A DNA stretch of 64,000 nt from Bradyrhizobium elkanii USDA 76 (GTDB lineage Bacteria; Pseudomonadota; Alphaproteobacteria; Rhizobiales; Xanthobacteraceae). Each line of letters starts with the position of its first letter. The first letter of the stretch is position 1. Positions 9,597-25,132 of the stretch are shown piece by piece. The DNA is taken from NCBI RefSeq assembly GCF_023278185.1, contig NZ_CP066356.1, positions 1,976,001 through 2,040,000 of the forward strand, in the 5' to 3' direction. The position numbers were made by a program, and so were the translations under genes. Under the pieces are notes generated by a model. That model was not told the DNA's origin, did not search any database, and was given only the letters and a program-made list of their open reading frames with translations.

Positions 9597-11150
9597 GCCG
9601 GCCTTGCGCAAGCCGTCGAGGAAGTGCTCGCGATCGACTGAATTTCTGTACCTTTCGGCCCGTGCTCGAACGAGATCGAGGGTGTTCGCCGGCGGCGTTG
9701 CGCCGTTCGCGCTTATTTCACGACAACGTTCCGTGACGAACGCTTCGGCTTCGGATCGCGCTTCGCTGTGCCGACCCATCTGCGCATAACAGGCGGCAAG
9801 CAGACTGTGCGACCAGCGGTCGGGGGATCGCGCCTCCATCAGCGTCTTGACTGCTTCATCGTACCGGCGCCCCGAATAGAGCGCGAGCGCGTGGTACCAG
9901 TGGTACAGATTGGGCGGGAAAGGATTCAGTCGTTTGGCCGCACCGATCCAGGTGAGGGCCTCTCGCCACCGTCCCCAGTAGACCAGAATGTTCGCGAAAA
10001 CGGCGGCGACATCGGCGTCGTTTGGATTGAGCGCGAGAGCTCGGCTGAAATGGATTTCAGCCTTGGCATCCTCGCGACGCAGGAACAGCAATTGCGCGAA
10101 GACGCCATGGGCCCAGGCGTCGCCGCCGTCGATGTCGAGCGCGGTCTCGATCTCGCTCAGCGCATCGTCGAGCTTCGCCGTGCCAGGCGATTCGAGAAAC
10201 ACGTCGCAGACGATCGTCCAGGCAATGTTGACGTGAGCGCGGGCATATTGCGGATCGAGCGCGACGGCGTCCCGGAAAAACTGCCTGGCTTCCGCCATGC
10301 CCTTCACGGTCAATTGACGCCAGCGCTCGTTGCCCAGCAGAACCAGGTCATAGGCGGTAATGTTCGGGGTCGGCTTGCGTCTGGCGATCTCGCGGCCGGC
10401 GTCCTCGAGCCGGCCCGGAAGGGCTGCGACGATTGCGCGGACGATCTCGTCCTGCAGGGCGAAGATGTCTTCGAGTTCGCGGTCGTAGCGCTCGGTCCAG
10501 AGATTGTAACCGCTCGCGCCATCGAGAAGCTGGACGGTCACCCGCATCCGGCTGCCGATCTTGCGCACGCTTCCTTCGGCCACGTACCTGACGCCGAGTT
10601 CGCGGCCGACTTGTTTGATCTCGGGCGTCTTGCCCTTGTAGGCGAAGCTGGAGTGGCGGGCGACAACGAACAGCGAGCGGAAACGCGACAGTTCGGCGAT
10701 GATATCTCCCGTGATTCCGTCGGAAAAATATTCCTGCGCGGAATCGCCGCTGAGATTCGAGAACGGCAGCACTGCAAGCGACGGCCCATCGGGCACCGTT
10801 ATTGCCGGCGCGGTGGGCAGGCCGGCGCCGGATTCGGCGGCGACCAGTGGCCCGACATAGCGGTAGCCGCGGCGCGGGAGGGTCTCGATCCAGGTCGTAC
10901 CGCCCTCGACGTCGGCAAATACCCGCCGCAGAGCGGCGATCTGCACCGTCAGATTGCTCTCCTCGATCGCAAGCCCCGGCCACGCCGCCTGCATCAATGC
11001 GTCCTTGGAAACCGGCGTTCCGGCCTGCTCGACAAGCAGCCGAAGCAGCGTCACCGCGCGCCGCCCGAGCGCGACCGGTTCGGACTCTCGAAACAACATC
11101 ACGGCTTCCGCGTCGAGGCGGTAGGGGCCGAATTCGTGGATCGTCGCCAT
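9585..11150 (-). CDS. CadC-type winged-helix regulator with TolB-like and TPR domains
   Basis: Residues 1-105 form an OmpR/CadC-type winged helix (FGPYRLDAEAVMLFRESEPV, then ESNLTVQIAALRRVF and TLPRRGYRYVGP). Residues about 120-250 match the domain usually found with it (LAVLPFSNLSGDSAQEYFSD, IAELSRFRSLFVVAR, LWTERYDRELEDIFALQDEI). Residues about 260-500 are TPR-like helical repeats. There is no receiver domain and no membrane helix, unlike CadC itself, so it probably senses a cytoplasmic signal through the TPRs. It is divergent from the gamma-glutamyltranspeptidase-like gene across a 239-bp gap holding a shared operator, but the target genes are unknown. Confidence 0.8.
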   Translation of the reverse strand: MATIHEFGPYRLDAEAVMLFRESEPVALGRRAVTLLRLLVEQAGTPVSKDALMQAAWPGLAIEESNLTVQIAALRRVFADVEGGTTWIETLPRRGYRYVGPLVAAESGAGLPTAPAITVPDGPSLAVLPFSNLSGDSAQEYFSDGITGDIIAELSRFRSLFVVARHSSFAYKGKTPEIKQVGRELGVRYVAEGSVRKIGSRMRVTVQLLDGASGYNLWTERYDRELEDIFALQDEIVRAIVAALPGRLEDAGREIARRKPTPNITAYDLVLLGNERWRQLTVKGMAEARQFFRDAVALDPQYARAHVNIAWTIVCDVFLESPGTAKLDDALSEIETALDIDGGDAWAHGVFAQLLFLRREDAKAEIHFSRALALNPNDADVAAVFANILVYWGRWREALTWIGAAKRLNPFPPNLYHWYHALALYSGRRYDEAVKTLMEARSPDRWSHSLLAACYAQMGRHSEARSEAEAFVTERCREISANGATPPANTLDLVRARAERYRNSVDREHFLDGLRKAGLSG

Positions 11151-11334: not shown

Positions 11335-11363
11335 TTGACAATGTAAGTAAGAACATTATTACA
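11335..11363 (+). promoter_or_regulatory. Promoter and operator of the transpeptidase-like gene
   Basis: A TTGACA box (11335-11340) and a TATTAC -10-like box (11357-11362, spacer 16) flank AGTAAGAACATTATTAC (11346-11362). The AGTAA-N8-TTAC pattern recurs in two other promoters of this locus, so it is probably the operator of the locus TetR regulator. Confidence 0.5.
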
Positions 11364-11389
11364 AACTGCAGTTTTCGGGGAACGCGTTC

Positions 11390-12982
11390 ATGCTGCAGAC
11401 CAAGCGAAGCTATAGCGGAATGGTGACCGCGCCGCATCACCTTGCGGCGCAGGCCGGGCTTGCCGTCCTTTCCGAGGGCGGCAATGCGGTCGAGGCGATG
11501 ATTGCGTCCGCCGCCACGATCGCGGTGGTCTATCCGCATATGAACGGCCTCGGCGGCGACAGCTTCTGGCTGGTCGGCCGGGCGGGCTCTGCGCCGGTCG
11601 GAATCCAGGCGTGCGGACGGTCGGCGAAGGCCGCCAGCCGCGCCTGGTATCGCGAGCATGGCTGCAGCACCATCCCAAGCCGCGGACCGCTCGCGGCACT
11701 CACCGCTGCCGGGACCGTCGATGGCTGGCAGAAGGCCTATGAGCTCAGCCGCGATCGCCATGGGGGGCGCATGCCGCTGTCGCGGCTGCTCGAACCTGCG
11801 ATCGGCTATGCCGCCGATGGCGTCGCCGTGACCCAGACCCTGCACGACAACTCCACGAAGAAGCGCGCTGAACTGCAGGATGTGCCGGGCTTTGCCGAGG
11901 TCTATCTGCCGCAGGGCGGTCCGCTTGCGGTCGGCACGCGGTTGCAGCAGCCGCGCGTGGCAGACACGTTGCGGCAGCTGGCGCGAGCCGGCCTTTCCGA
12001 TTTCTATCGCGGCGACCTGGCGCGTTCGATGGCGACTGATCTCGAACGGCTCGGCAGCCCGCTCCGCCTATCCGATCTGGAGCAGCATCAAGCCTCACTG
12101 GTGACGCCGCTGTCGGTCGATGTGGCGGGGCACAAGGTGTTCAACATGCCGCCGCCGACGCAGGGCCTGGCCTCGCTGTTGATTCTTGCGCTCTATGCCC
12201 GGCGCATGGCGAAGGAGGCGGATGGGGTCGATCATCTGCATCGGCTGGTCGAGAGCACCAAGGCGTCGTTCCGCATCCGCAATCGCTACGTGACCGACCC
12301 CGACTACATGGCGCGGGCGGCTGCCGGGTTTCTCACCGACGAGTCCATTGCGGCGCTCGAAAAGACCGTCGCCATCGATCATGCAGCGCGCTGGCCTGAC
12401 CCGCCGACCCAGGGCGATACGGTCTGGCTTGCTGCGACCGACCGGAACGGCCTCGGCGTCAGTTTCATTCAGAGCATCTATTGGGAGTTTGGCTCGGGCG
12501 TCATCCTCCCCCAAAGCGGGGTCACCTGGCAGAACCGTGGGACGAGCTTCGGTCTCGCCGAGACCGACATCAACCGCCTGGAACCTGGGCGGCTGCCGTT
12601 CCATACCATTCAGCCTGCAATGGCTGAACTCAGCGATGGCCGGCTGTTGTCCTACGGCACGATGGGCGGCGAAGGGCAGCCGCAAACCCAGGCCGCGATC
12701 TTCACGCGCTACGCCTTGCACGGTCAGGACCTTCAGTCGACAGTGACCGCGCCGCGCTGGTTGCTCGGTCGCACATGGGGCGAGGAGAACAACAATCTCA
12801 AGGTCGAATCGCGTTTCGATCCTGCCGTTGTCGACGCGCTGCGGGCGCTCGGCCACGACATCCAGGTGGTCGGCGCGTTCGAGGAATTCATGGGCCACGC
12901 CGGCGCAATCGTCTGGCATCCGGACGGACTGCTCGAGGGCGCCAGCGATCCCCGCAGCGACGGCGTCGTCGCTGCCCGGTGA
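11390..12982 (+). CDS. Gamma-glutamyltranspeptidase-family Ntn hydrolase
   Basis: The 530-residue product has the family start GMVTAPHHLAAQAGLAVLSE and GGNAVEAMIA, the NGLGGDSFW segment, and the processing site TQGDTVWLAATD. In that site the Thr near residue 344 should become the N-terminal nucleophile after autocleavage. Near the C-terminus GTMGGEGQPQTQ corresponds to the GGS-like oxyanion region. No signal peptide is evident, so the enzyme is likely cytoplasmic, unlike classical periplasmic GGT. The location beside ring and amide hydrolases suggests an amidase role on a small nitrogen compound rather than glutathione breakdown. GGGGAA 8 bp upstream supports the ATG at 11390. Confidence 0.85.
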   Translation: MLQTKRSYSGMVTAPHHLAAQAGLAVLSEGGNAVEAMIASAATIAVVYPHMNGLGGDSFWLVGRAGSAPVGIQACGRSAKAASRAWYREHGCSTIPSRGPLAALTAAGTVDGWQKAYELSRDRHGGRMPLSRLLEPAIGYAADGVAVTQTLHDNSTKKRAELQDVPGFAEVYLPQGGPLAVGTRLQQPRVADTLRQLARAGLSDFYRGDLARSMATDLERLGSPLRLSDLEQHQASLVTPLSVDVAGHKVFNMPPPTQGLASLLILALYARRMAKEADGVDHLHRLVESTKASFRIRNRYVTDPDYMARAAAGFLTDESIAALEKTVAIDHAARWPDPPTQGDTVWLAATDRNGLGVSFIQSIYWEFGSGVILPQSGVTWQNRGTSFGLAETDINRLEPGRLPFHTIQPAMAELSDGRLLSYGTMGGEGQPQTQAAIFTRYALHGQDLQSTVTAPRWLLGRTWGEENNNLKVESRFDPAVVDALRALGHDIQVVGAFEEFMGHAGAIVWHPDGLLEGASDPRSDGVVAAR

Positions 12983-12983
12983 A

Positions 12984-13002
12984 GCGAGCACCCTTAGCTC
13001 GC
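12984..13002. terminator. Possible hairpin between convergent genes
   Basis: GCGAGC and GCTCGC form a 6-bp stem with a 7-base loop right after the stop at 12982 and before the end of the convergent TetR gene. There is no T-run, so termination is only suggested by position. Confidence 0.3.
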
Positions 13003-13036
13003 ACCAGCAGGCTGTTCGAAATCTGCCGCGCGTGAG

Positions 13037-13831
13037 CTAGCGTGCGGCGCCGGCGGGTGTTCTGGCTGCCGACGGTTTCCGTTTTCCCTCGCTTGCGGCC
13101 GCCATCGCCGTCAACCAGGTCATGATCACGTCCAGCGCGTGGTGGCGACGTTTCTCCAGCCAGTCCGGCTCTCCCAGATCCTTGTCGAACATCGCCGACA
13201 GCGTGTAGCGGTTGGAGACATGAAAATAGCTCATGGCCGTGATCGTGACGTAGAGCTGAACCGGATCGACGTCGCTGCGGAATAGCCCGACCGCTAGGCC
13301 CCGGCGAAGGATGTTTTCGATGCTCGCGACCAAGGGCAGCGTGAGGTCGGCGATCTTGCGCGATTTGCGCAGGTTGCGCCCGCGCTGCAGGTTCTCATTG
13401 TTGATCAGGGCAATATAGTTCTGGTGCGCCCCGAAAAAGGTGAACGTGAAGTTGATCAGCTCGCGCATGGCCGCGACGGGATCGAGGTCGTCGAGCTTGA
13501 GTTGCTGTTCGGCCGCACGGATCTCGGTGTAGACGTGTTCGAGCACGGCGAGATAAAGGCCGTTCTTGTCGCCGAAATAGGCGTACAGCAACCGCATGTT
13601 GGCTTTGGCGCGCTTCGCGATGGCTTCAACCCGAGCCCCGCCAATGCCGTTGCGGCAGAACTCGAACGTCGCCGCGTGCAGGATCGCTTCCTTCGTCAAC
13701 GCGGAATCGCGGGCCCGTCTGCCCCGCGTGGCGCTGCGGGCCGGATTGGTCGATGCTGTCGTTTCAGTCACGGGACAAGCTTTTCTCAGGTTGTACGAGC
13801 CCAGCGCCGACAATATGTCCCCGCCCATCAT
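13037..13831 (-). CDS. TetR-family transcriptional regulator
   Basis: The N-terminal helix-turn-helix is typical of TetR proteins: LTKEAILHAATFEFCRNGIG, then VEAIAKRAKANMRLLYAYFG with DKNGLYLAV. The C-terminal ligand domain is all helical. ATG 13831 is used; a GTG at 13771 would place the helix-turn-helix closer to the N-terminus, so the start is uncertain. It sits between the transpeptidase-like gene and the amidohydrolase and is the only TetR protein in the locus. It is therefore the best candidate to bind the shared AGTAA-N8-TTAC operators at 11346, 16250 and 22091. The ligand would be a pathway substrate. Confidence 0.88.
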   Translation of the reverse strand: MMGGDILSALGSYNLRKACPVTETTASTNPARSATRGRRARDSALTKEAILHAATFEFCRNGIGGARVEAIAKRAKANMRLLYAYFGDKNGLYLAVLEHVYTEIRAAEQQLKLDDLDPVAAMRELINFTFTFFGAHQNYIALINNENLQRGRNLRKSRKIADLTLPLVASIENILRRGLAVGLFRSDVDPVQLYVTITAMSYFHVSNRYTLSAMFDKDLGEPDWLEKRRHHALDVIMTWLTAMAAASEGKRKPSAARTPAGAAR

Positions 13832-13939
13832 GTTCAACGGGATGCGGGGCCTTGCCGTGCAGGCTCGCGGGATTGAGATCGCTATTGCGGTGGCTCGTCA
13901 AGGGGTAACCTTCCCGATGTTCCGGTCTCTACATCCACA

Positions 13940-15151
13940 TCAGCGCGCTGCCGTCACGATCGTGCCGCCATGCGCGACGAGGCGCCCGTTCTTGTAGACG
14001 TCGCGCGGCCTGGGCCGGGCCACCACCGCCTCTTGCACGTGCTGCGCGTCGAGCACGACGAAGTCCGCCGCCGCGCCCTTGGCCACCCCATAGTCCCGGA
14101 GGCCGAGGGCCTGCGCGGCATTGGTGGTTACCATGTTGAAGGCCGCCGCTAGGTCGGCATCGGTGCTGAAGCCGGAGCGGTAGCCGACGATCATGGCGCG
14201 CTCCAGGAGGTCGCCATCGCCGTAGGGCCACCAGGAATCGCGGATGTTGTCATTGCCGGCGAACACATTGACGCCGGCATCGCGCAGCAGCAACACCGGC
14301 GGAAACGCATGCGCTCCGGGCGCGTTGGTCAAGATCGCGACTCCGGCCTCCGCGAGCAGCTGCGCGGTGCGCTGAACGGCATCACGCGGCACCTCGCCGA
14401 GCGCATAGGCATGGCTGATCGTGACCTTGCCGCCGAGCCCGAGGGCCTTCGTCCGGCGTGCAATGTTCTCGATCTCGAAGATACCGAGCAAGCCGCCGTC
14501 ATGCAGGTGAATGTCGATGCCGACCCCGCGCCGGTCGGCAATGCCGAAGATGACGTCGAGATGCCCGTCGATGTCGGCATCGTAACCCGCCGGATCGAGG
14601 CCGCCGACCAAGTCCGCGCCGGCGCGTACCGCCTCGTCGAGCAGTCCGGCTACGCCCGGCGATGTCACGATGCCGCTTTGCGGAAAGGCGACGATCTGGA
14701 CCGACACCTTGTTGCGGTGCGCGTCGCGCGCCGCCATGACCTGCTCGAGATTGCGCAACCCGACCTGAAGGTCGATATCGACGTGGCTGCGCATCTGGGT
14801 CGTGCCGTGCGCGACGCAGAGGTCGATCAGCGCCGCCGCCCGCACCGCAATCGGCCTGGCGCCGGCAAGTGCCTCCTTTTCGAACTTGACGCGCTCGCGC
14901 ACGCTGAAACCGGCGGTGCAGGGGCGGTGGGACTTCCAATCGTCGCCGACGAAGCCCTTGTCGAGGTGGATATGACCATCGACCAGCCCCGGCAACACAA
15001 GGCGTCCGGTCAGATCAAGGGTTTCGCGGGCCGCGACCGGGGATTGGGAGTGCGACGCGATCGAGATGATGCGGCCGTCGCATACGGCGACATCGACGGT
15101 GCGCCCATCGACCAGTCGGGCGTTTCGAAACAGCGTGTCGACAGTGCTCAC
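13940..15151 (-). CDS. Amidohydrolase of the cytosine deaminase (CodA/AtzC) group
   Basis: The protein has the metal-dependent amidohydrolase layout: LPGLVDGHIHLDKGFVGDDW, MRSHVDID, the IDIHLHDGG metal His, TISHAYALG and FAGNDNIRDSWWPYGDGDLL near the C-terminus. The HIHLDK and GNDNI-D-W features place it with cytosine deaminase and N-isopropylammelide hydrolase relatives, which hydrolyse C-N bonds of ring compounds. GTG 15151 is chosen because GGAG lies 7 bp upstream; the frame is open to an ATG at 15226, which would overlap the upstream gene. It follows the deacetylase-like gene on the same strand. The natural substrate is unknown. Confidence 0.85.
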   Translation of the reverse strand: MSTVDTLFRNARLVDGRTVDVAVCDGRIISIASHSQSPVAARETLDLTGRLVLPGLVDGHIHLDKGFVGDDWKSHRPCTAGFSVRERVKFEKEALAGARPIAVRAAALIDLCVAHGTTQMRSHVDIDLQVGLRNLEQVMAARDAHRNKVSVQIVAFPQSGIVTSPGVAGLLDEAVRAGADLVGGLDPAGYDADIDGHLDVIFGIADRRGVGIDIHLHDGGLLGIFEIENIARRTKALGLGGKVTISHAYALGEVPRDAVQRTAQLLAEAGVAILTNAPGAHAFPPVLLLRDAGVNVFAGNDNIRDSWWPYGDGDLLERAMIVGYRSGFSTDADLAAAFNMVTTNAAQALGLRDYGVAKGAAADFVVLDAQHVQEAVVARPRPRDVYKNGRLVAHGGTIVTAAR

Positions 15152-15206
15152 TGGTCGTCTCCGGTTCGTTGCAAAGGCGAGGCGATCGGGGCCCGATTTG
15201 TTTTCA

Positions 15207-16199
15207 TCATGTTGGGACGATGCCATCCGGTAGCGCGCGCGAGAACGCGGCTATGCCTCCCGCGGTGGTGATCCAGATCTCGTCACGCCGCGCCAGGATT
15301 GTCTGCAGAGCGCGGCGCAGCGGACGCAGGCGGTGCGGCTGGCCGACCAGATAGGGGTGCAGCGCAATTCCCATGACCAGCGATTGCCTTTTCGACTGTG
15401 CCAGCATCTCCTCGAACGCGTCGGTGATCATGGTGGCGAACTGCTCGCCGGAGTCCTTGCGACCGACGATCGAGGGGATATCGTTCAACTCCTGCGGATA
15501 GGGCACTGAAAGGATGCGGCCGCCGTTCCGCGTCGAGAACCACACCGGCTGATCGTCCATGCACCAGTCGAGCAGGTACTCGTAGCCTGCTTCGGCCAGC
15601 AGATCGGGTGTGACCTGTGATTGCGAAATCCAGGGTCCCAGCCAGCCGCGCGGCCGCCGCCCTTCGGCTCGCGCGATGACATCGGTCGCTTCCGCGATCA
15701 ATTGACGCTCCTCGTCGGGCGCAAGCACACCCTGGCGCTCGGAATTGGTGCGGCCGTGACCGACGACTTCGTCGCCGCGGGCGCGAAATGCCTCCATGAC
15801 TTCAGGGCAGTAGTGATAGATGCTGCTGTTTGCGAGCACCGACAGCTCCAACTCGTCGAACAGCTCGATCAGGCGCCACACGCCGACACGGTTGCCATAG
15901 TCACGCCAGGCGTAGTTGAGGACGTCCGGATGCGGACCGCCGGGGCAGAGCTCGGCACCGAGTCCGTCGCCGAATGCGAAATGCTCGAGGTTGAGACCGA
16001 CATAGACGGCGAGCCGCCGTCCTTGCGGCCAATTGAAATCCGGACGTTGCCCGATCGCGCTGTAGCGATAGCGCCCGTGGGCGGCGAGGGCGGGTCCGAC
16101 AGAATCCGAGCGCAGTACCGCTTCCCCGCGCGACAGGCGGTCGCCATCTTCCGCGATCGAGATCAACACGTCGCGGGCCTCGACATTCCTTGGGTCCAT
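15207..16199 (-). CDS. Polysaccharide deacetylase-fold hydrolase, PuuE (allantoinase)-like
   Basis: The 330-residue protein belongs to the NodB-fold branch that includes PuuE-type allantoinase. Signs are AVYVGLNLEHFAFGDG, RDYGNRVGVWRLIELFDE, EVVGHGRTNSERQG with the metal-site His, RGWLGPWISQSQVT, and MGIALHPYLVGQPHRL near the end. Such enzymes open amide rings rather than deacetylate sugars when, as here, they sit in nitrogen-compound loci. The frame runs up to 16343, but that part would cross the operator at 16250-16265. ATG 16199 has GGAG 9 bp upstream and is taken as the start. It is divergent from the transporter genes. Confidence 0.85.
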   Translation of the reverse strand: MDPRNVEARDVLISIAEDGDRLSRGEAVLRSDSVGPALAAHGRYRYSAIGQRPDFNWPQGRRLAVYVGLNLEHFAFGDGLGAELCPGGPHPDVLNYAWRDYGNRVGVWRLIELFDELELSVLANSSIYHYCPEVMEAFRARGDEVVGHGRTNSERQGVLAPDEERQLIAEATDVIARAEGRRPRGWLGPWISQSQVTPDLLAEAGYEYLLDWCMDDQPVWFSTRNGGRILSVPYPQELNDIPSIVGRKDSGEQFATMITDAFEEMLAQSKRQSLVMGIALHPYLVGQPHRLRPLRRALQTILARRDEIWITTAGGIAAFSRALPDGIVPT

Positions 16200-16243
16200 C
16201 GGAATTTTCTCCGCGCGGCTGATCGCTCGCTTGACATCGGAAT

Positions 16244-16273
16244 ATTTTTGAAGAAAGTTTTTACTTCCGTCAA
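16244..16273 (-). promoter_or_regulatory. Promoter and operator of the PuuE-like gene
   Basis: Read on the minus strand, TTGACG (16273-16268) is followed by AGTAAAAACTTTCTTC (16265-16250) and a weak AAAAAT -10. The 16-base operator is identical over 15 bases to the one at 22091 and has the same distance to its -35 box. It also lies between the divergent hydrolase (16199) and transporter (16349) starts and could control both. Confidence 0.55.
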
Positions 16274-16348
16274 GTCCGCGCATAAGCGGCAGCGGAGGAA
16301 CTGGCGGCTTCGATGCCGAGGCCGCCATCAGCGGGAGGAACACCGAAG

Positions 16349-17557
16349 ATGAACTTCAGGAGCATAGTTTCGTCCGGACCTGCGCGTCGTTGGCCGGCTT
16401 GGCACGCCGCAGCGACGATCCTGCTGGCCGCGTTGCCGTTCACGTCTGGCGCGCGCGCGGCCGAACCGATCAAGATCGGCCTGGTGACCGCCCTGTCGGG
16501 GCAGTCGGCGCGCGCCGGCGAGGCGCTGACCCGCGGAGCGACGATCGCCATCGAGGAAATCAATGCGAAGGGCGGCGTACTTGGACGTCCGCTCGAGCTC
16601 GTCCGCCGCGACGACGAGAGCAATCCGGCCAAAGGGCTGATTGCCGCGCGCGAGCTGATTCAGCGCGAGAAGGTCGCGGTCCTGGTCGGCGGCCTCGACA
16701 CGCCGGTCGAGCTCGCCATCGTGCCGTTCGTCAACAACGTCAAGGTGCCGTTCGTCGTGCCGTGGGCCGCCGGGACCAACATCACGCGGAACGGCGCGCC
16801 GTCCAACTACGTGTTCCGCGTCTCGGCCATGGACGATGAGGTCGACAAGGCGATCGTCCAGTTCTCGCGCAAGACCTACAATGCGAAGAAGCCCGGGCTC
16901 ATCCTCGTCAACAATCCCTGGGGCGAGTCGAACGAGCATGGCCTGAAGGCGGCATTGAAGGCCGCAGGAATTGAGCCTGCCGGCGTCGAGAAGTTCGAAG
17001 GCAACGACGTGGATGTCGTTTCCCAGCTATCGCGGCTGAAGCAGGCCGGCGCCGACACGCTCTACCTGGTCGGCAATGTCGGACCGTCCTCCCAGGTGGT
17101 GAAATCGCTCGACCGCATGGGCTGGGCGCCGCCGATCGTCTCGCATTGGGGGCCGGCCGGCGGCCGCTTCACCGAGCTCGCCGGGCCGAGCGCGGAGAAC
17201 GTGATCTTCGTCCAGACCTACAGCTTCTTCGGGAACCTGTCGCCGGTCGGCAAGCGGGTGATGTCGGCCCTGCAGGCGAAGTATTCGGATATCAAGGGGC
17301 CTGCGGACGTGACGCCGGCGGTTGGCGTCGCCAACGCCTACGACTCCATCCTGGTCATTGCGCGAGCAATCGAAAAGGCCGGTGGCACCGAACCGACCGC
17401 CGTCCGTGACGGTTTCTACGCCATCGACCGCGTGGACGGCTTGATCAAGACCTACGAGAAGCCGTTCGCGCAAGACAAGCACGATGCGCTGACGGCGGGG
17501 GACTACATCTGGGCGCGGTTCGAGGACAACCACATCATGCCGTTCGCGCGGAACTGA
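16349..17557 (+). CDS. Branched-chain amino acid-type ABC transporter, periplasmic binding protein
   Basis: The mature protein has the LivJ/UrtA-like type I periplasmic fold: IKIGLVTALSGQSARAGEAL, IEEINAKGGVLGRPLEL, RDDESNPAKGLIAAREL and VGGLDTPVELAIVPF. A signal peptide with an Arg-rich start and a hydrophobic core ends at about SGARA-AE (residues 37-38). ATG 16349 has GGGAGG upstream and begins the signal peptide; the upstream open frame is ignored. It is the first of a run with the two membrane/ATPase genes. The ligand is probably an amide or ureide-type compound, judging from the neighbours. Confidence 0.9.
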   Translation: MNFRSIVSSGPARRWPAWHAAATILLAALPFTSGARAAEPIKIGLVTALSGQSARAGEALTRGATIAIEEINAKGGVLGRPLELVRRDDESNPAKGLIAARELIQREKVAVLVGGLDTPVELAIVPFVNNVKVPFVVPWAAGTNITRNGAPSNYVFRVSAMDDEVDKAIVQFSRKTYNAKKPGLILVNNPWGESNEHGLKAALKAAGIEPAGVEKFEGNDVDVVSQLSRLKQAGADTLYLVGNVGPSSQVVKSLDRMGWAPPIVSHWGPAGGRFTELAGPSAENVIFVQTYSFFGNLSPVGKRVMSALQAKYSDIKGPADVTPAVGVANAYDSILVIARAIEKAGGTEPTAVRDGFYAIDRVDGLIKTYEKPFAQDKHDALTAGDYIWARFEDNHIMPFARN

Positions 17558-17597
17558 CCGCGCGCGATCGTCCGACAAACAAGCAGGGTAGTCATCG

Positions 17598-18473
17598 ATG
17601 TCATTTCTTCCCGCGGTGATAACAGGACTGGCGCTGGGGAGCATGTACGGGCTGCTTGCGCTTGGCTTCCACGTCACCTACGCCGTCTCCGGCACGGTCA
17701 ATTTCTCCCAAGGCAGCTCGATGACCCTGGGAGCCGTTGCCGGATACTTCTTCCTCGTGCTGTGGGGATGGCCGGCCGCGGCCGGCATTCCCGCCGTTCT
17801 GCTCGTCTGCGCGCTCTATGGCCTGCTGATTGAGCGCTTTGCCGTCCGGCCGTTCGTGCAGCGCGGCTCCGACAATTGGCTGATGGCGACCGTTGCGGTC
17901 GGCATCATCGTCGACAACGTGATGATGTTCGTCTTCGGCAAGGAGCCGCGCAGCTTTCCGTCCGTCCTGGCGGCCAAGCCGATCCAGATCGTCGAGGGCG
18001 CGGGGGTCTATCCGTTGCAGCTCCTGATTCCCGTGGTCGGATTGCTGCTGGCGCTGGCACTTCATCTGCTCAGTCGCCGGACGCGCCATGGCGTCGCCAT
18101 GCTCGCGGTGGTCCAGAATCCGAACGCTGCGCGGCTGATGGGCATCAACGTCAGCGGCGCCATCGCGGCAAGCTACGCGGTCTCGGCGATGCTGGCCGGG
18201 GTTGCGGCGCTGCTGATCGCGCCCCTGTTCAACGTGTCCTCCGAAATGGGCACGCTGTTCGGCATCAAGGCCTTCGCGGCGGCGATCATCGGCGGCCTCG
18301 GCAGCGCCTGGGGCGTGATGCTGGCCGGGCTCTGTCTCGGCCTGATCGAGGTGTTCGCGACCAATTACCTGGGATCGGTCTACACCCAGATCATCACATT
18401 CGCCTCGGTGATCGCGATCCTTGTCGTCCTCCCCCACGGGCTGCTCGGCCGAGCCGGAGTGAAAAAAGTATGA
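17598..18473 (+). CDS. LivH-type ABC transporter permease
   Basis: The 291-residue membrane protein has the LivH pattern with about eight hydrophobic segments, the opening ITGLALGSMYGLLALGFHVT, NFSQGSSMTLGAVAG, and the cytoplasmic loop RRTRHGVAMLAVVQNPNAAR that contacts the ATPase. IIGGLGSAWGVMLAGL sits near the C-terminus. Its stop overlaps the start of the next gene (ATGA at 18470-18473), so translation is coupled. It pairs with the LivM part of the fused protein downstream. Confidence 0.92.
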   Translation: MSFLPAVITGLALGSMYGLLALGFHVTYAVSGTVNFSQGSSMTLGAVAGYFFLVLWGWPAAAGIPAVLLVCALYGLLIERFAVRPFVQRGSDNWLMATVAVGIIVDNVMMFVFGKEPRSFPSVLAAKPIQIVEGAGVYPLQLLIPVVGLLLALALHLLSRRTRHGVAMLAVVQNPNAARLMGINVSGAIAASYAVSAMLAGVAALLIAPLFNVSSEMGTLFGIKAFAAAIIGGLGSAWGVMLAGLCLGLIEVFATNYLGSVYTQIITFASVIAILVVLPHGLLGRAGVKKV

Positions 18474-21004
18474 CCTCTCGCGTCTCCGTTCTCGCCGCCG
18501 TCGCGGCACTCGCGGTCGCCATCCTCTATGCCGCCGTTGCCGACAGCTACGGCGTGTTCCTGGTCGCGACCATCTCGCTGACGGCGATCGCCTGTATCGG
18601 CCTCAACGTACTGCTCGGTTTGGCGGGGCAGATCTCGCTCGGCCACATCGGCTTCATGGCGATCGGGGCCTACACGACCGTGCTCCTGATGGAGAAGGCG
18701 GGGTGGCCCTATCTTGCGGCGACGGCTGCCGCGATTGCCCTTGTCAGCGTCGTCGGTGGTCTGCTCGCCATGCCGGCCTTGCGCGTGCGAGGTCCATATC
18801 TCGCGATGGTGACGATCGCCTTCGGCTTCATCGTCGAGCACGGCACGATCGAGTGGCGCGACCTCACGGGCGGCGGCAACGGCCTGATCCTGACCGCGCC
18901 ACCAGAGGTGTTCGGCTTTCCGCTGTCGGAGCGGCATTTGGCGATCGCGGGCATCGTGCTGGTGTTCGCCGGCCTCATCCTGTTCGAGCGCTTGAAGCGG
19001 AGCGGCTGGGGCTACGCTATGCGTGCCGCCCGCGACACTGAAGTTGCGACGCGCTCGATCGGCATTGATCTCGTGCGGGTCCGCACCGTGGCGTTCATCA
19101 TCTCGGCCGCTGCGATGGCGTTGGCGGGGGCGCTGTTTGCACCTCTGCAGGGCTATATCAGCCCGAGTTCGTTCCCCTTTCTGCAATCGATCCTGCTGCT
19201 GTTCGGCGTCATGGTCGGCGGCGCCGGCTCGGCGCTGGGGCCGGTGATCGGGGCGGCGCTCGTCGTGCTGCTGCCGGAAATGCTGTCCGACCTCGCGGAG
19301 TATCGTCTGCTGGCCTTCGGCGTGCTGCTTTTCGCCGTGCTGCGAGTCGCGCCCTCAGGCATCATGGGGCTGATCGAGCAATTCGCGGCAAGGTTCCTGC
19401 CGACGGGATCGAAGGCCGATCCGGGCGCGGTGGGCGTCGAGCCGGTCGCCGACCTCGGCATCGGGACCAGCCGCGCGTCGCGTCTTGACGTCACAAGCCT
19501 CTCGATCTCGTTCGGCGGTGTCCGCGCCGTGCAGGATGTCTCGTTTACCGCCGAACCCGGCACGGTGACCAGCGTCATCGGCCCCAATGGTGCAGGGAAA
19601 ACCAGCGCGCTGAATCTGCTTTGCGGCTTCTATCGTCCGAAATCCGGCACCGTGAAGCTTGGCGACCGCGACGTCACCGGTTTGCCGTCGCACCAGCTTG
19701 CACGTGTCGGAGTGGCGCGGACGTTCCAGACGACGCAGCTATTCGGCTCGCTCTCGATCATCGAGAACGTCCTGCTGGCGGCGACGGCGGGCAAGCTCGG
19801 TAACATCGTGTCGGCGCTGCACAATGAGGCGCAGGAGCGCCTCGCGCGGTCGCTGTTGCGCTTTGCCGGTGTCGACGGCGATTTGAGCAGACGCGCGGAC
19901 TCGCTGCCCCATGGTGAGAAGCGACTGGTCGAGATCGCGAGGGCGCTCGCCTTGCGACCGAAGATCCTGCTGCTCGACGAGCCGGCCGCGGGTCTTTCGA
20001 AGGGCGACAAGCAACGGCTGACGGTTCTGCTCCGTCGCATCGCGGAGACCGGGATCGCGGTCATCATCGTCGAGCACGACATGCCGATGATCATGTCGCT
20101 GAGCGACCTCATCGTCGTTCTCGATGGCGGCAAGCGCATCGCGATCGGCGATGCGGCGGCGATCCGCAACGATCCGCTGGTCCGCAAGGCCTATCTCGGC
20201 GACGCGCCGTCGGGTGAGCGGCGCCGCGCGCCACGCCCGGCGAAACAAGGCACGGCGCTCGAAGTCCGCACGCTCGATGCCTTCTATGGCCTGTCGCGGG
20301 CGCTCGGTGGGATCGACCTTGCCGTCGCCCCCGGCGAGGCCATCGCCGTACTCGGTGCCAACGGAGCAGGGAAAACCACCCTGATGCGCTCGATTGCCGG
20401 CCTCGAACCACCGCGGTCGGTCGGAGAGATTCGGCTGTCCGGCGCCCGCGTCGACAAGATGCCGGCGCATATCCGCGCCAGGGCAGGCATCGTGCTGGTG
20501 CCCGAAGGACGGCAGGTGTTTCCCGAGCTGACGGTGCGGCAGAACCTGCGGCTCGGCGCTTTCGCACGCAAGGGCCTCGATCTCGACGCGGAGATCGACG
20601 CGATGTTTGCCCGCTTTCCGCGCCTGAAGGAGCGCATCAATCATCGCGCGGGCCTTTTATCGGGCGGCGAGCAGCAGATGCTCGCGGTCGCGCGTGGGCT
20701 CCTGACCGCGCCCAAGGTCTTCATGCTTGACGAGCCGTCGCTTGGACTGGCGCCCCTTGTCGTCGACGAGCTGTTCGCGTCGTTCGAGCAGCTTCGCGTC
20801 GAGGGGATGACCTTGATCGTGGTCGACCAGATGGCTGGGCAAGCCCTTGCGCTTGCCGACAGGGCCTATCTGCTCGAGACCGGCGCCATCCTGAAGAGCG
20901 GCGCGGCCGAAATCATCGCGGAAGATCCCTCGCTTGAAGCCGCCTATCTCGGCGGAGAGGCTCACGGGAGTAGTGTGCCGCGAACCGCAGTGCTCGCGTC
21001 CTGA
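18470..21004 (+). CDS. Fused ABC transporter protein: LivM permease, LivG ATPase and LivF ATPase
   Basis: One 844-residue frame carries three subunits that are normally separate. Residues 1-305 are a LivM-type permease (GLAGQISLGHIGFMAIGAYT, RAARDTEVATRSIGID). Residues about 335-580 are a LivG ATPase with Walker A GPNGAGKTS (371-379), a noncanonical signature LPHGEKRLVEIA and Walker B ILLLDEP. Residues about 595-830 are a LivF ATPase with Walker A GANGAGKTT (629-637), signature LSGGEQQMLAVAR and Walker B FMLDEP. No internal stop or shift is seen across either junction. The LivG signature lacks the second Ser/Gly of LSGG. The fusion fixes the ATPase pair to one permease half. Confidence 0.93.
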   Translation: MTSRVSVLAAVAALAVAILYAAVADSYGVFLVATISLTAIACIGLNVLLGLAGQISLGHIGFMAIGAYTTVLLMEKAGWPYLAATAAAIALVSVVGGLLAMPALRVRGPYLAMVTIAFGFIVEHGTIEWRDLTGGGNGLILTAPPEVFGFPLSERHLAIAGIVLVFAGLILFERLKRSGWGYAMRAARDTEVATRSIGIDLVRVRTVAFIISAAAMALAGALFAPLQGYISPSSFPFLQSILLLFGVMVGGAGSALGPVIGAALVVLLPEMLSDLAEYRLLAFGVLLFAVLRVAPSGIMGLIEQFAARFLPTGSKADPGAVGVEPVADLGIGTSRASRLDVTSLSISFGGVRAVQDVSFTAEPGTVTSVIGPNGAGKTSALNLLCGFYRPKSGTVKLGDRDVTGLPSHQLARVGVARTFQTTQLFGSLSIIENVLLAATAGKLGNIVSALHNEAQERLARSLLRFAGVDGDLSRRADSLPHGEKRLVEIARALALRPKILLLDEPAAGLSKGDKQRLTVLLRRIAETGIAVIIVEHDMPMIMSLSDLIVVLDGGKRIAIGDAAAIRNDPLVRKAYLGDAPSGERRRAPRPAKQGTALEVRTLDAFYGLSRALGGIDLAVAPGEAIAVLGANGAGKTTLMRSIAGLEPPRSVGEIRLSGARVDKMPAHIRARAGIVLVPEGRQVFPELTVRQNLRLGAFARKGLDLDAEIDAMFARFPRLKERINHRAGLLSGGEQQMLAVARGLLTAPKVFMLDEPSLGLAPLVVDELFASFEQLRVEGMTLIVVDQMAGQALALADRAYLLETGAILKSGAAEIIAEDPSLEAAYLGGEAHGSSVPRTAVLAS

Positions 21005-21008
21005 CGCC

Positions 21009-22037
21009 ATGGTTGCGCAGCGGGAGATCGGTGTGATGCGGCCAGGCAATACGTTTCGCGACCTGCCCGGCGCGCCCGTGTCTGAACGATTCGACGGCGG
21101 TGCCGTGATCGAGGTCGGCGTGCTGGCGCGCCGCGCGCTACGCAGCGGACGGCGCGGCCGCATTGCGGCGGTGTTCGAGCGCAGCCTTTATGCGGTGCTC
21201 GACGATTGCTGGATCTGCATCGGTGTCAAAGACCTCGGCTCCGGCCCGCTGCATCTTCTGTGCACCGGGATCGAACCGCGGCTGCTCGTTCCCGGACAAG
21301 AGGTTGCGATCGTCGACACGATGCTGCTCGTCGACGGTATGCGGTTTGCCGGTTTCGAGACGGCCTCCGTATGGGCGCCGCCGCCGTCGCCGGAATGGAC
21401 GCTCGACAGTTTGCGGGCAGGCCTTGCGATGGTCGATCGGGTCTGGCTTCGCTTGCCGGTCGAGCAGGGGCTGGCCGCGTCGGGTGGCGTGCAGCCTCCC
21501 GCAAGGCCGTCTCGGGTGCTCGCTGCCGCGGCGCCGGGGCTCGCCGCGCTTAGGCGATTGATCGAGGCCGGGCTTCGCGGAGAGCGATGTGTACCGCGCG
21601 ACTACCCGGAGATCGTCGAATTGATCGGCCTTGGTCCCGGGCTCACGCCATCCGGCGACGACCTGATCGGCGGTGCGCTGGTCGCGCTCGCCGGCCTCGG
21701 CCGTCTCGCGACGCGCGATGCGCTGTGGAAGACCTGTCGCGCGCATCTCGGTCGGACCAATGAGATCAGTGCTGCCCACCTGCACAGCGCCGTGCTCGGC
21801 TTCGCGGCGGCGGCGCTCCATGAGGCCATCGACGCGACGATTGGCGGACGGGTGGATCGTATCAAGTCCGCGGTCGCGGCGCTGTCGCGGATCGGGCAAA
21901 GCTCGGGACTGGATGCGTTTGCAGGTGCGCTGATGGTGTTGCGCGCGATCGAGTGCCGGCTGCTCAACGACAGCGCGCTGCATCATGCCGGCCTCGCCGG
22001 CAACGGCCCGCCGACGCGATCAATCGCAGGGGCCTAA
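21009..22037 (+). CDS. DUF2877 protein, AllH/YlbF-like carbamoyltransferase subunit
   Basis: The C-terminal half carries the family signature LIGLGPGLTPSGDDLIGGAL, followed by SAAHLHSAVLGFA. DUF2877 includes E. coli YlbF (AllH), reported as one part of the oxamate carbamoyltransferase that completes allantoin breakdown. ATG 21009 is preferred because it starts 4 bp after the transporter stop; the frame is open upstream inside that gene. The other two subunits follow after a promoter at 22084. The compound split in this organism is unknown, and the AllH role is inferred from family and context. Confidence 0.82.
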   Translation: MVAQREIGVMRPGNTFRDLPGAPVSERFDGGAVIEVGVLARRALRSGRRGRIAAVFERSLYAVLDDCWICIGVKDLGSGPLHLLCTGIEPRLLVPGQEVAIVDTMLLVDGMRFAGFETASVWAPPPSPEWTLDSLRAGLAMVDRVWLRLPVEQGLAASGGVQPPARPSRVLAAAAPGLAALRRLIEAGLRGERCVPRDYPEIVELIGLGPGLTPSGDDLIGGALVALAGLGRLATRDALWKTCRAHLGRTNEISAAHLHSAVLGFAAAALHEAIDATIGGRVDRIKSAVAALSRIGQSSGLDAFAGALMVLRAIECRLLNDSALHHAGLAGNGPPTRSIAGA

Positions 22038-22083
22038 ACGATCATGCGACGCAGCGGGAATTCGGACGACAGGTTGCGCGTGT

Positions 22084-22113
22084 TTGACAAAGTAAAAACT
22101 TTCTTACTAAGAT
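22084..22113 (+). promoter_or_regulatory. Promoter and operator of the FdrA/DUF1116/carbamate kinase operon
   Basis: TTGACA (22084-22089), an 18-bp spacer and TAAGAT (22108-22113) form a good sigma-70-like promoter. The spacer holds AGTAAAAACTTTCTTACT (22091-22108), an imperfect inverted repeat with AGTAA/TTACT arms. A repressor there would block RNA polymerase directly. Confidence 0.6.
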
Positions 22114-22141: not shown

Positions 22142-22333
22142 GTGGTGACCAAGCAGGAAGATACGCCGAGCGGGCGTCTGTTGATGAGCAAGCCGAGCGT
22201 GGTGAATGTCGGGCTGGCAGGCTTTGTGAAGGACTTGCGGGATTGCGATATCGAGGTCGTGCAGGTCGATTGGACGCCGCCTGCCGACGGCGATCCCGAA
22301 ATGGCGGCACTGCTCGCCAAGCTCGGTACGTGA
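22142..22333 (+). CDS. Stand-alone FdrA C-terminal-domain-like small protein
   Basis: The 63-residue product contains VVNVGLAGFVKDLRDCDIEV and VQVDWTPPADGDPEMAALL. I recognise this pattern as the small domain that normally ends FdrA-type proteins. Here it is a separate gene upstream of DUF1116, while the FdrA gene at 23591 stops without it. The GTG at 22142 (or 22145) has GGAGG about 8 bases upstream. It is probably a complex subunit that docks on FdrA/DUF1116. The split is the observation; the function is inferred. Confidence 0.7.
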   Translation: MVTKQEDTPSGRLLMSKPSVVNVGLAGFVKDLRDCDIEVVQVDWTPPADGDPEMAALLAKLGT

Positions 22334-22343
22334 GAGGGCGGCC

Positions 22344-23594
22344 ATGAAGCTGATCGAAGACGCCAACAAGCAGGCGCTGGCACGCATCCTCGAGGGTGAG
22401 CCCCGGCTGATCGATATCGTTCCGGCGCGCGACGTGCTGGAACGGTTGAAGGAACGCATGATCCTTCATGCCGGGCCGCCGATCACCTGGGACCGAATGT
22501 GCGGTCCGATGCGTGGCGCGGTAGCCGGCGCCATCGTGTTCGAAGGCTGGGCTCCGGATCTTGAAGCCGCCTTCGAACTCGCGGCCGGCGGCGGCGTCGC
22601 ATTCCACCCCAACCATCATTTCGGCGCGGTCGGTCCGATGACCGGCATGACCACGGTCTCCATGCCGGTGTTCGTCGTCGAAAACGCCAAATACGGCAAC
22701 CGCGCCTACTGCGCCATCAACGAGGGCCTCGGCAAGGTCATGCGCTTCGGCGGCAACGACGATAGCGTGCTGGCCCGCCTCGCCTGGCTGCGTGACGTAT
22801 TCGGGCCGGTGCTCGCCAGGGCGATCCGCGCGCATGGCGGGATCGACCTGAAGGCGATCATCGCGCGCGGACTCTCGATGGGCGATGAAATGCACCAGCG
22901 CAACCTGGCCTGCTCCAGCGTGTTCCTGCGCGAGATCGGGTCGGCGCTGGCGCGCACCTCGAACGACAACGAAGTTCTCGCAAGCTGCATTGGCTTCATC
23001 GCGCAGAACGACCAGTTCTTTCTCAACATCGCGATGGCGATGGGCAAGGCGCTGACCGATCCCGCCAAGGGCATTCGCGGTTCGACGGTGGTAACCGCGA
23101 TGTGCCGCAATGGAACCGATTTCGGGGTCCGCGTCAGCGGATTGGGCGATCGCTGGTTCACGGCGCCGGTGGAGATGCCGGAAGGGCTCTATTTCCCGGG
23201 CTATTCGCGCAAGGATGCCAATCCCGACATGGGTGACTCCGCGATCGTCGAGACAGTCGGGCTTGGTGGCTTCGCGATGGCGGCAGCTCCAGCGGTTGCC
23301 GGCTTCATCGGCGCTGGCGCACCGTCGTCGGCGGGCAATTTCACGCGGGCAATGAGCGAAATCACTGTCGGGCAGAATCCGGAATGGACGATTCCCGCGC
23401 TCGATTTTGCCGGCGTGCCGACCGGCATCGACGTTCGCCTGGTGGTGGAGACCGGCCTCGCACCGGTCATCAACACCGGCATCGCGCATCGCGAGCCCGG
23501 CATCGGCCAGGTCGGCGCCGGCGTGGTGCGGGCGCCGATGGCCTGCTTCCGGCAGGCCGTCCTCGCCATTGCGGAAGATCTGGGGGTGTCATGA
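22344..23594 (+). CDS. DUF1116 protein, AllG/YlbE-like carbamoyltransferase subunit
   Basis: The 416-residue protein matches DUF1116: WDRMCGPMRGAVAGAIVFEG, the Gly/His-rich GGGVAFHPNHHFGAVGPMTG, YCAINEGLGKVMRFGGND, MGDEMHQRNLACSSVF, and NGTDFGVRVSGLG. E. coli YlbE (AllG) is the best-known relative and acts with FdrA and YlbF as oxamate carbamoyltransferase. The two His-rich glycine loops probably form part of the active site. Its stop overlaps the FdrA start (ATGA), so the two are coupled. No signal or membrane segment is seen, so it is cytoplasmic. Confidence 0.88.
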   Translation: MKLIEDANKQALARILEGEPRLIDIVPARDVLERLKERMILHAGPPITWDRMCGPMRGAVAGAIVFEGWAPDLEAAFELAAGGGVAFHPNHHFGAVGPMTGMTTVSMPVFVVENAKYGNRAYCAINEGLGKVMRFGGNDDSVLARLAWLRDVFGPVLARAIRAHGGIDLKAIIARGLSMGDEMHQRNLACSSVFLREIGSALARTSNDNEVLASCIGFIAQNDQFFLNIAMAMGKALTDPAKGIRGSTVVTAMCRNGTDFGVRVSGLGDRWFTAPVEMPEGLYFPGYSRKDANPDMGDSAIVETVGLGGFAMAAAPAVAGFIGAGAPSSAGNFTRAMSEITVGQNPEWTIPALDFAGVPTGIDVRLVVETGLAPVINTGIAHREPGIGQVGAGVVRAPMACFRQAVLAIAEDLGVS

Positions 23595-25132
23595 GCGCGT
23601 ATGTCCTGAACGAAATTCGCAAGGGCTTCTATCTCGACTCGGTGGCGTTGATGCGGTTGTCGCGCGAGGTCGCGTCGGCGGCGGGCGTCGTCGAAGCCGC
23701 GCTGATGATGGGCACGCCGTCCAACCAGGCGATCTTGCGCAACGCCGGATTGCTCGATGGCGAGGTGATCGCGCAGGGCAATGATCTGATCCTCGCGATC
23801 AAGGCCGAGAGCGAAGCGGCGGCACGCGCCGCGCTTGCCGAAGCGCAAAAGGCGCTCGACCGCCCCAAGACGAGCAGCAGCGGCGAAGCGGCGTGGCGGC
23901 CGCGCAGCATTGCCGCGGCCGTCAAGGCGGCGCCCGCCGCCAGCCTCGCCCTGATCTCCGTTCCCGGCGAGTTCGCCGCGGCGGAAGCGCGCAAGGCGCT
24001 GAACCGCGGACTTCATGTCCTGATGTTCAGCGACAATGTCTCGATCGCGGATGAATTGTCGCTGAAGCAGCAGGCGCGCGAAGCGGGCCTCTTGATGATG
24101 GGACCGGACTGCGGCACGGCGGTCATCGGCGGCGCGCCGCTCGCCTTCGCCAACCGGCTGAAGCGCGGCAGGATCGGGATCATCGGCGCATCCGGGACCG
24201 GGACGCAGGAGGTGTCGTGCCTGCTGTCCGAGGCGGGCGAAGGCATTTCCCACGCCATCGGCGTGGGCGGACGGGATTTGAAGAAGGAGATCGGCGGCAT
24301 CACGACATTGATGGCGATCGACGCCCTTGATGCCGATCCCGAGACCGATCGCGTCGTGCTCATCTCCAAGCCGCCGCACCCGGACGTCGCCCGGGCCGTG
24401 CTCGGCCGGATCGGAAGCAGCTCGAAGCCCTACACAGTGTGCTTCATCGGCGCCGCCTCGGCGGATCTGCCGCCAAATGCACGCTTTGCCGGTACGTTGA
24501 GGGAAGCGGCCGAGAAAACCCTCGGCAACGGCCGGAGCATTGGCGGCAAGTTCGACGCTGCCGCCGTCGCTGCGCGTTTGCCGCAGCGACGCAAGGCGGC
24601 GCAGCGCATCGAGGGGCTGTTCGCCGGCGGCACGCTCTGTGCCGAGGCGCAGGTGATCCTTGCCGCGGGCGGCCGCAAGGTGGCATCGAATGCCGCCATT
24701 CCCGGCGTCCCGCATTTCGGGGAGCCGGAGGCGCAGGGGAGGGACCGCATCGTCGACCTCGGCGCCGACGAATATACCCAAGGCCGGCCGCATCCGATGA
24801 TCGATCCCTCGGTGCGCGACGATGCGTTGCGGGCGGCGCTCGCCGATCCGGCGGTTGCCGTCATCCTGCTCGATCTCGTGATCGGATACGGCGCACACGA
24901 CAACCCGGCAGCGCATCTTGCGGCTGTCATGGCGGGCCGCGCGGATGACGCGCCGGTTCTGGTTGCGTCGGTGACCGGGACCGAACTCGATCGCCAGGTG
25001 CGTTCGGCGCAGATCAGGCTGCTCGAAGACGCCGGCATCGTGGTGGCGCCGTCGAATGCCCAGGCCTGTGATCTCGCTCTCGCTCTTTCCGTCAACGACG
25101 TCAGGATGCCGTGCTATGCGAACACTCAATGA
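23591..25132 (+). CDS. fdrA: FdrA-family protein (AllF-like), lacking the usual C-terminal domain
   Basis: FdrA proteins have two acyl-CoA-synthetase-like modules, and both are visible. Module one has GMSNQ-type MGTPSNQAILRNAGLL and later LMMGPDCGTAVIGGAPLAFA and GIIGASGTGTQEVSCLL. Module two has DLGADEYTQGRPHPMIDP and VILLDLVIGYGAHDNPA. ATG 23591 overlaps the DUF1116 stop and gives 513 residues. The product ends at about SVNDVRMPCYANTQ, without the small VGL-VDW-PP domain, which is encoded at 22142. Together with DUF1116 and DUF2877 it likely forms a carbamoyltransferase making carbamoyl phosphate. Confidence 0.88.
   Translation: MSAYVLNEIRKGFYLDSVALMRLSREVASAAGVVEAALMMGTPSNQAILRNAGLLDGEVIAQGNDLILAIKAESEAAARAALAEAQKALDRPKTSSSGEAAWRPRSIAAAVKAAPAASLALISVPGEFAAAEARKALNRGLHVLMFSDNVSIADELSLKQQAREAGLLMMGPDCGTAVIGGAPLAFANRLKRGRIGIIGASGTGTQEVSCLLSEAGEGISHAIGVGGRDLKKEIGGITTLMAIDALDADPETDRVVLISKPPHPDVARAVLGRIGSSSKPYTVCFIGAASADLPPNARFAGTLREAAEKTLGNGRSIGGKFDAAAVAARLPQRRKAAQRIEGLFAGGTLCAEAQVILAAGGRKVASNAAIPGVPHFGEPEAQGRDRIVDLGADEYTQGRPHPMIDPSVRDDALRAALADPAVAVILLDLVIGYGAHDNPAAHLAAVMAGRADDAPVLVASVTGTELDRQVRSAQIRLLEDAGIVVAPSNAQACDLALALSVNDVRMPCYANTQ

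Follow-up and report, generated by a model that had tools for sequence, protein, structure and literature searches.

The locus analyzed here lies in a window of 64,000 nucleotides from Bradyrhizobium elkanii USDA 76 (contig NZ_CP066356.1, positions 1,976,001 to 2,040,000) and comprises a cluster of probable nitrogen-utilization genes, a gene for a TetR-family regulator (TetR) and three copies of a short operator-like element located in promoters. Coordinates refer to the window, and the loci and genomes used for comparison carry L and G numbers, respectively. The following genes are present.

11390-12982, plus strand: GGT-family Ntn hydrolase, probable oxamate amidohydrolase (HpxW-like); best solved match 5hft, both chains
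13037-13771, minus strand: TetR-family regulator of 244 amino acids, TetR_N and TetR_C_29 domains, recognition helix A-N58-M59-R60-L
13940-15151, minus strand: amidohydrolase of the cytosine deaminase / N-isopropylammelide amidohydrolase type (NF004636, above cut-off)
15207-16199, minus strand: PuuE-like protein (puuE) of the polysaccharide-deacetylase type; best solved match PuuE allantoinase 3cl6
16349-17557, plus strand: periplasmic binding protein of a branched-chain/urea-type ABC transporter (family and homology searches)
17598-18473, plus strand: ABC permease (Pfam family search)
18470-21004, plus strand: permease-ATPase-ATPase fusion of the ABC transporter, 844 amino acids (Pfam family search)
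21036-22037, plus strand: AllH, oxamate carbamoyltransferase subunit (PF11392, 72.1 bits, cut-off 25)
22142-22333, plus strand: small open reading frame of 63 amino acids between the allG promoter and allG, with relatives in other loci
22344-23594, plus strand: AllG, oxamate carbamoyltransferase subunit (PF06545, 306.8 bits, cut-off 27)
23591-25132, plus strand: FdrA/AllF (NF004760, 484.7, cut-off 433)
25116-26075, plus strand: carbamate kinase, ArcC/AllK (TIGR00746, 361.3, cut-off 358.25)

AllF, AllG, AllH and carbamate kinase are thus all present above their family cut-offs. Among the solved matches of the GGT protein, 5hft_A and 5hft_B rank first and second, with T344 aligned to residue 1 of 5hft_B, as expected for a small chain that starts with Thr; 5hft is presumably Klebsiella HpxW. 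The TetR domains score 36.5 bits for PF00440 (cut-off 24) and 139.4 bits for PF17938, TetR_C_29 (cut-off 26.2). The PuuE-like protein matches TIGR03212 partially, at 118.1 bits and below the cut-off of 424.6, and possibly opens a cyclic imide or ureide ring. Cyclic imide hydrolases are described among PuuE relatives (PMC9304392). Of the 35 loci searched, 30 bear allG, and all of these contain a relative of the small open reading frame before allG, which is possibly an overlooked subunit.

The operator elements and the promoter boxes around them are as follows.

11346-11363, plus strand: operator 1, AGTAAGAACATTATTACA, before the GGT gene
16248-16265, minus strand: operator 2, AGTAAAAACTTTCTTCAA, inside the divergent promoter common to puuE and the ABC operon
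22091-22108, plus strand: operator 3, AGTAAAAACTTTCTTACT, before the allG operon, filling the 18-nucleotide spacer
11335-11340, plus strand: -35 box TTGACA of the GGT promoter; TTGAC in 20 of 20 orthologous promoters placed by gene homology
16268-16273, minus strand: -35 box TTGACG of the puuE promoter, 18 nucleotides from AAAAAT at 16249-16244
16231-16236, plus strand: -35-like TTGACA toward the ABC operon, divergent to puuE (letters read)
22084-22089, plus strand: -35 box TTGACA of the allG operon (letters read, consensus scan)
22108-22113, plus strand: -10 box TAAGAT of the allG operon (consensus scan)

An original prediction, made from the window alone, had placed these three elements behind TTGAC(A/G) boxes, ahead of a transpeptidase-like (GGT) gene, a PuuE-like gene and an FdrA (allG) operon, with a TetR gene at 13037-13831 among them. 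The letters read at the three places agree, as do the boxes (TTGACA, TTGACG and TTGACA) and the genes that follow. The TetR gene is present with a different start, the common start of its orthologues being the GTG at 13771. The spacing, which had been called identical, is not: the gap from TTGAC to AGTAA is 6 nucleotides at the GGT site, 3 at the puuE site and 2 at the allG site. The proposed AGTAA-N8-TTAC type describes the GGT and allG sites but not the puuE site, which ends in CTTCAA without the right TTAC half. A location between the -35 and -10 boxes is borne out by the consensus scan for the allG site (TTGACA-18-TAAGAT, 10/12) and the puuE site (TTGACG-18-AAAAAT, 9/12), whereas it is presumed for the GGT site, where the scan recognised no -35/-10 pair; the scan of the stretch found 3 promoter-like sites with 1.3 expected. 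The puuE operator sits between two facing TTGAC boxes, one of which had been overlooked, and can therefore also serve the divergent ABC transporter operon. Among the puuE-type sites listed, GTCAAG is retained at the place of the 16231-16236 box in 21 of 21.

Operators 2 and 3 have 15 bases in common, and complementary pairs number 7/9 in the allG site, 6/9 in the GGT site and 4/9 in the puuE site. The predicted operator is 18 bp long, with AGTAAGAA-NN-TTCTTACT as its ideal form. With up to 2 mismatches, AGTAANNNNNTTNTTACT occurs at two places in the window, on both strands each, giving 4 matches where 0.19 are expected; none of 100 shuffled windows reached 4. The strict 15-mer AGTAANAACNTTNTT has 3 matches in the entire 9.52 Mb genome, all in the locus, and its reversed control has none. 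Across the same genome, the pattern TTGAC-N1-9-GTAA-N8-TTAC revealed no site beyond those already known. A looser search of this genome with AGTAARAANNTTYTTACT, allowing up to 3 mismatches, gave 11 places versus 23 in the control. Of the 11, eight are located elsewhere than in the window, each at 3 mismatches; among these, the one resembling the puuE site was inspected.

That place is located directly before a second GGT gene (GGT2), 1.5 Mb away, has the same TTGAC layout, and is the sole place beyond the locus matched by a TTGAC-containing pattern in this genome. Over 525 residues, GGT2 and the window GGT are 41% identical. GGT2 is found in 5 of 195 genomes of the genus (E 1e-180), all of them TetR-positive, and a related site precedes it in 5 of 5, all five with CTTGACCGAAGTAAGA. 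In three Afipia loci GGT2 lies inside the cluster. Its best solved match is 2nlz ('cephalosporin acylase') and not 5hft, which makes its substrate less clear. The imperfect right half CTTCA, common to the puuE operator and the GGT2 operator (L033:2952-2969), is kept from Bradyrhizobium to Afipia and Pseudolabrys. The GGT2 promoter (L033:2952-3010, G000:C1:3491451 onward, and L113-L116) also has a conserved TTGGTAT(A/G)CCAAAT directly after the operator. This second conserved element suggests a further regulator, perhaps of the GntR type.

Conservation was examined in 20 of the 21 other Bradyrhizobium genomes with a puuE-type site, with 20 kb fetched from each except for one shorter contig (L041); the nearest named relative in this comparison is Bradyrhizobium pachyrhizi (L054), whose TetR is 99% identical. 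The cluster is present in all 20 loci; the L041 contig stops short of allG, and L034, L039 and L053 gave no puuE but keep the site before the amidohydrolase. With promoters placed by gene homology alone, the motif precedes the GGT gene in 20 of 20 loci, L037 carrying a variant site, and allG in all 19 loci that reach it. Counting the window, TTGAC-N2-6-AGTAA occurs 62 times in 21 loci, with 3 sites per locus except in L041. In the operators the column identity reaches 0.95-0.99, compared with 0.55-0.82 in the flanks; for the GGT operator, the mean over 20 promoters is 0.99, with 0.55-0.61 in its flanks. These values use sites picked by TTGAC and AGTAA, the unbiased check being the count in homology-placed promoters.

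Retrieval by TetR alignment gave 28 loci, including 12 from outside Bradyrhizobium (Afipia, Pseudolabrys and other Rhizobiales). Since L054-L069 come mostly from the genomes of L034-L053 or from near relatives, they were not counted twice. The recognition helix is conserved in L054-L081 by construction, since the retrieval peptides were AATFEFC[HR] and RAKANMRL, and is not evidence there. A looser pattern gave stray matches within genes (e.g. L072:607 and L073:10371), which were set aside, and sites were recounted next to genes with the strict pattern. With genes placed by homology, all 12 non-Bradyrhizobium loci have at least 1 site before a gene of the set. The site precedes allG in 8 of 8 loci and the GGT gene in 6 of 6; it lies within 330 bp before puuE in 9 of 10, the tenth (L080) having it about 560 bp away, and before the amidohydrolase in both loci without puuE. 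An allH gene behind tetR is preceded by a site of its own in 8 of 10 loci. In the rearranged clusters of other genera the sites travel with the genes, the allH exceptions apart.

A TetR orthologue (E 7.6e-119 or better) is found in 22 of the 195 genus genomes; of the remaining 173, 163 have paralogues at best (best E 1e-42 to 1e-56), and the other 10 lack any match at E 1e-30. The pattern TTGAC-N2-6-AGTAA-N5-TTNTT has 69 matches in the 195 genomes, 66 of them in the 22 TetR-positive genomes (with one duplicate from overlapping ends of contigs in G148) and 3 in the other 173, while its reversed control has 10 matches in all 195. By coordinates, the 66 matches are at the locus or at GGT2. The 3 others, one each in G050, G103 and G140, are at control level; in the 3 kb around these sites no locus gene was found apart from a weak ABC match in one. 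Single occurrences of the strict 15-mer in the TetR-negative genomes G033, G035, G036, G081, G085, G093, G167 and G172 were set aside as stray, with no TTGAC shortly before them.

Relatives of TetR from other families of the order provide a test that is less dependent on the cluster. Nine homologues of 46-50% identity were collected, the order- and class-level TetR searches being made without a peptide filter. In six of the nine, a palindrome GTAA-N8-TTAC is located within 400 bp upstream of the relative's own tetR, where 0-0.07 are expected per whole locus, and these six are exactly those with an N-I-R or N-M-R helix; the remaining helices read N-K-R or N-V-Q. In L134 the palindrome lies between an I-type tetR and a divergent Bmp-type ABC transporter (PF02608; L134:10451-15270). 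The 16 kb of L134 searched with the query set contain no further pathway gene beyond a weak ABC similarity. L136 resembles L134. In nitrifiers, BmpA-NupABC transporters have been reported next to allFGHK (PMC12625717). Of 20 Bradyrhizobium paralogues of TetR (40-48% identity, helix N-K-Q or N-K-R), none has the palindrome in the 400 bp upstream.

TetR (13037-13771) is probably the regulator of the 18-bp operator, repressing the local operons and the distant GGT2 for nitrogen use of the oxalurate/oxamate type, and we put the likelihood of this reading at roughly 85%. The proposal is backed by the occurrence of TetR in the same 22 of 195 genomes as the sites and by the palindrome upstream of the own genes of its distant relatives. 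Beyond the observed sites, their conservation, their co-occurrence with TetR and the palindromes near its distant relatives, we infer from sequence comparison the binding of TetR, repression, a ligand and the pathway. Several findings weigh against this assignment. The 4/9 pairs of the window puuE site are matched by one third of shuffles, and the puuE and GGT2 sites have a single good half each. In three of the five genomes with GGT2, its site is altered in the core or second half (TTCCTTCA) and is missed by the TTGAC-N2-6-AGTAA-N5-TTNTT pattern. In L074 and L077, allH behind tetR is without its own site, and no operator lies directly before tetR in the close orthologues. Finally, TetR is linked to three of the sites, so that co-occurrence alone could be cluster inheritance.

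In an unlikely alternative, the operator is real but bound by another, unlinked regulator (GntR, LysR or another TetR) while the resident TetR acts elsewhere. All tests were comparative, the puuE-type site is asymmetric, and the additional conserved TTGGTATACCAA-like palindrome of the GGT2 promoter indicates that other factors may act nearby. The relatives' loci were searched for two regulators only, TetR and the TPR regulator (9585-11150); the former occurs in every orthologous locus, the latter in L054 only. The 3 control-level matches in 173 TetR-negative genomes argue against an unlinked regulator, as do the distant relatives with the palindrome upstream of their own gene, in L134 beside the Bmp-type transporter. 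A still less probable explanation is that the element is a core-promoter part, either the signature of an alternative sigma factor or an AT-rich spacer. In its favor, the element adjoins TTGAC in all counted sites and is located at the binding place of RNA polymerase. However, the gap between TTGAC and the element varies by gene (2, 3 or 4-6 nucleotides, and as many as 8 in Afipia) with the element itself conserved, and a sigma factor is unlikely to accept such variation. The element is also palindromic at the GGT and allG sites and limited to one gene set in 9.5 Mb, and the palindrome beside the tetR of distant relatives has no TTGAC at the same distance. Resemblance by chance, or a recent duplication of a single promoter region, to which the shortness of the motif and the 15 bases shared by operators 2 and 3 might point, is contradicted by the shuffle and whole-genome counts and by the separate conservation of each site across genera, and is barely credible.

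With TetR as the repressor, a dimer would in the absence of ligand sit between the -35 and -10 boxes of the GGT, puuE, allG and puuE-facing ABC promoters and block RNA polymerase. Repression by occlusion is the natural model, since the operator occupies space needed by the polymerase, and a compound of the pathway would release TetR. One TetR would thus govern ABC uptake, the amidohydrolase, the PuuE-like hydrolase, AllFGH with carbamate kinase, GGT and GGT2. The original prediction had tied the locus into one regulon; conservation, TetR co-occurrence and the palindromes of distant TetR relatives support this, but its scope was too small, as the ABC/allH operon and GGT2 would also belong. A lack of conservation upstream of orthologous genes, which the prediction had named as refuting, was checked for, and the motif withstood this test. 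The tetR gene itself would be expressed at the distal end of the puuE operon, and the gene order together with the lack of an operator just before tetR suggests indirect autoregulation. In the proposed chemistry, a cyclic or linear ureide would be converted to oxalurate, then to oxamate and carbamoyl phosphate, and finally to oxalate, ammonia and ATP. Parabanic acid reportedly induced oxamate transcarbamylase in a Streptococcus, according to a report of 1965 listed among the references of PMC11326118. The ureide-oxalurate-oxamate-oxalate route appears plausible because of the AllFGH function, this induction report and the cyclic imide hydrolases among PuuE relatives. AllFGH is the oxamic transcarbamylase of E. 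coli (PMC11326118).

The best NCBIfam match of the window TetR is RutR (E 3.5e-13), the TetR-family regulator of a nucleobase nitrogen pathway (pyrimidine utilisation) in E. coli, which is also among its solved relatives. The window protein is not RutR itself, scoring 49.9 bits for TIGR03613 against a cut-off of 368. The RutR operator is TTGACCANNTGGTCAA, in contrast to AGTAAGAANNTTCTTACT here. Met59 of the window TetR is aligned with Lys52 of RutR. This lysine was modelled to contact guanine, as Lys36 of QacR does, and DNA binding by RutR is impaired by uracil (PMC10891134); the recognition-helix peptide with Lys52 is given in PMC4709262.

We performed a class-level search of 385 genomes with the L134 TetR as query. 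Matches were found in 40 genomes, and 30 loci were examined, one of them the window's own. K-type relatives, 39-50% identical to the query, resemble the window TetR in being homologous, in the GTAA...TTAC outer half-sites and in a 16-bp core length, and differ by Lys for Met/Ile in the recognition helix and by C after GTAA. A GTAAC-N6-GTTAC-like palindrome lies near the gene in 17 of 22 class-level K-type loci (L161 with T in one half). Counting all loci, GTAA is followed by C in 41 of 42 K-type half-sites versus 2 of 56 I/M-type half-sites. GTAA-N8-TTAC is present in 20 of 24 I/M-type loci and absent from 27 of 44 K-type loci, namely the 20 Bradyrhizobium paralogues (about 1.2-1.4 kb looked at in each) and L131, L133, L170, L173, L185, L187 and L188. 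The Fisher value of 5e-24 for this helix/operator code is not a probability, as the K-type rows are one clade and many half-sites come from related genomes.

We regard as tentative, at somewhat less than even odds, the wider proposal that a TetR clade with Met/Ile in place of the guanine-reading Lys uses GTAAGAA-NN-TTCTTAC-type rather than GTAACC-N4-GGTTAC operators and governs a private, partly unlinked regulon of Bradyrhizobium and relatives for an undescribed ureide pathway, perhaps leading from parabanate or a similar cyclic imide via oxalurate and oxamate to oxalate. Other findings speak against such a code and likewise against the assignment of TetR to the operator. Because the K-type proteins form one clade, the correlation of helix and operator amounts to one evolutionary change, seen repeatedly. 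Other residues changed too, and the distant I/M rows (L163, L165, L178 and L186) fit poorly. Only 3 of 6 class-level I/M-type loci have GTAA-N8-TTAC, two of the three with one half of C-type. Overall, 4 of 24 I/M-type loci (L070, L160, L163 and L165) are without it within 1.5 kb of tetR, and L160, L163 and L165 have none even with one mismatch and 5/8 pairs.

Two further observations concern regulators of the window and the class. A winged-helix and TPR regulator (9585-11150) adjoins the locus; among the searched loci it occurs only in the near relative L054, and it is probably outside the regulon. An N-K-R TetR subfamily is widespread in alphaproteobacteria, with GTAAC(C/T)-N4-(G/A)GTTAC-like palindromes near the gene, in the following loci.

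N-K-R subfamily loci with palindrome: L161, L164, L166, L168, L169, L171, L172, L174-L177, L179-L184

The gene set itself recalls two known systems. Like the regulon proposed here, the allantoin regulon of E. coli has allFGH and carbamate kinase (allK) under its control for the degradation of oxalurate. There, the allF operon is activated by AllS (LysR-type) and ArcA (PMC12535856), with AllR acting elsewhere than at this operon, whereas here a TetR-type operator lies inside the promoter. HpxW of the Klebsiella hpx pathway has oxamate amidohydrolase activity (PMC5270733), and the window GGT, nearest to 5hft, would carry oxamate on to oxalate and ammonia. Unlike in Klebsiella, this GGT is joined with AllFGH, carbamate kinase and the PuuE-like hydrolase under one operator. 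A TetR repressor regulon is of a known kind; the regulon, the operator and the proposed specificity difference were not found described in the open-licence literature searched, which also yielded no paper on a Bradyrhizobium TetR with oxamate.

The proposed regulon is sharply defined, with an operator, a regulator, four local operons and one distant gene, and would serve oxamate/carbamoyl nitrogen use in Bradyrhizobium and relatives. Its operator ties a distant GGT gene to the pathway, and Met59 or Ile versus Lys offers a single-residue hypothesis for the operator difference of a TetR subfamily. For these bacteria, the finding means that a nitrogen-scavenging gene set is probably switched on and off together.

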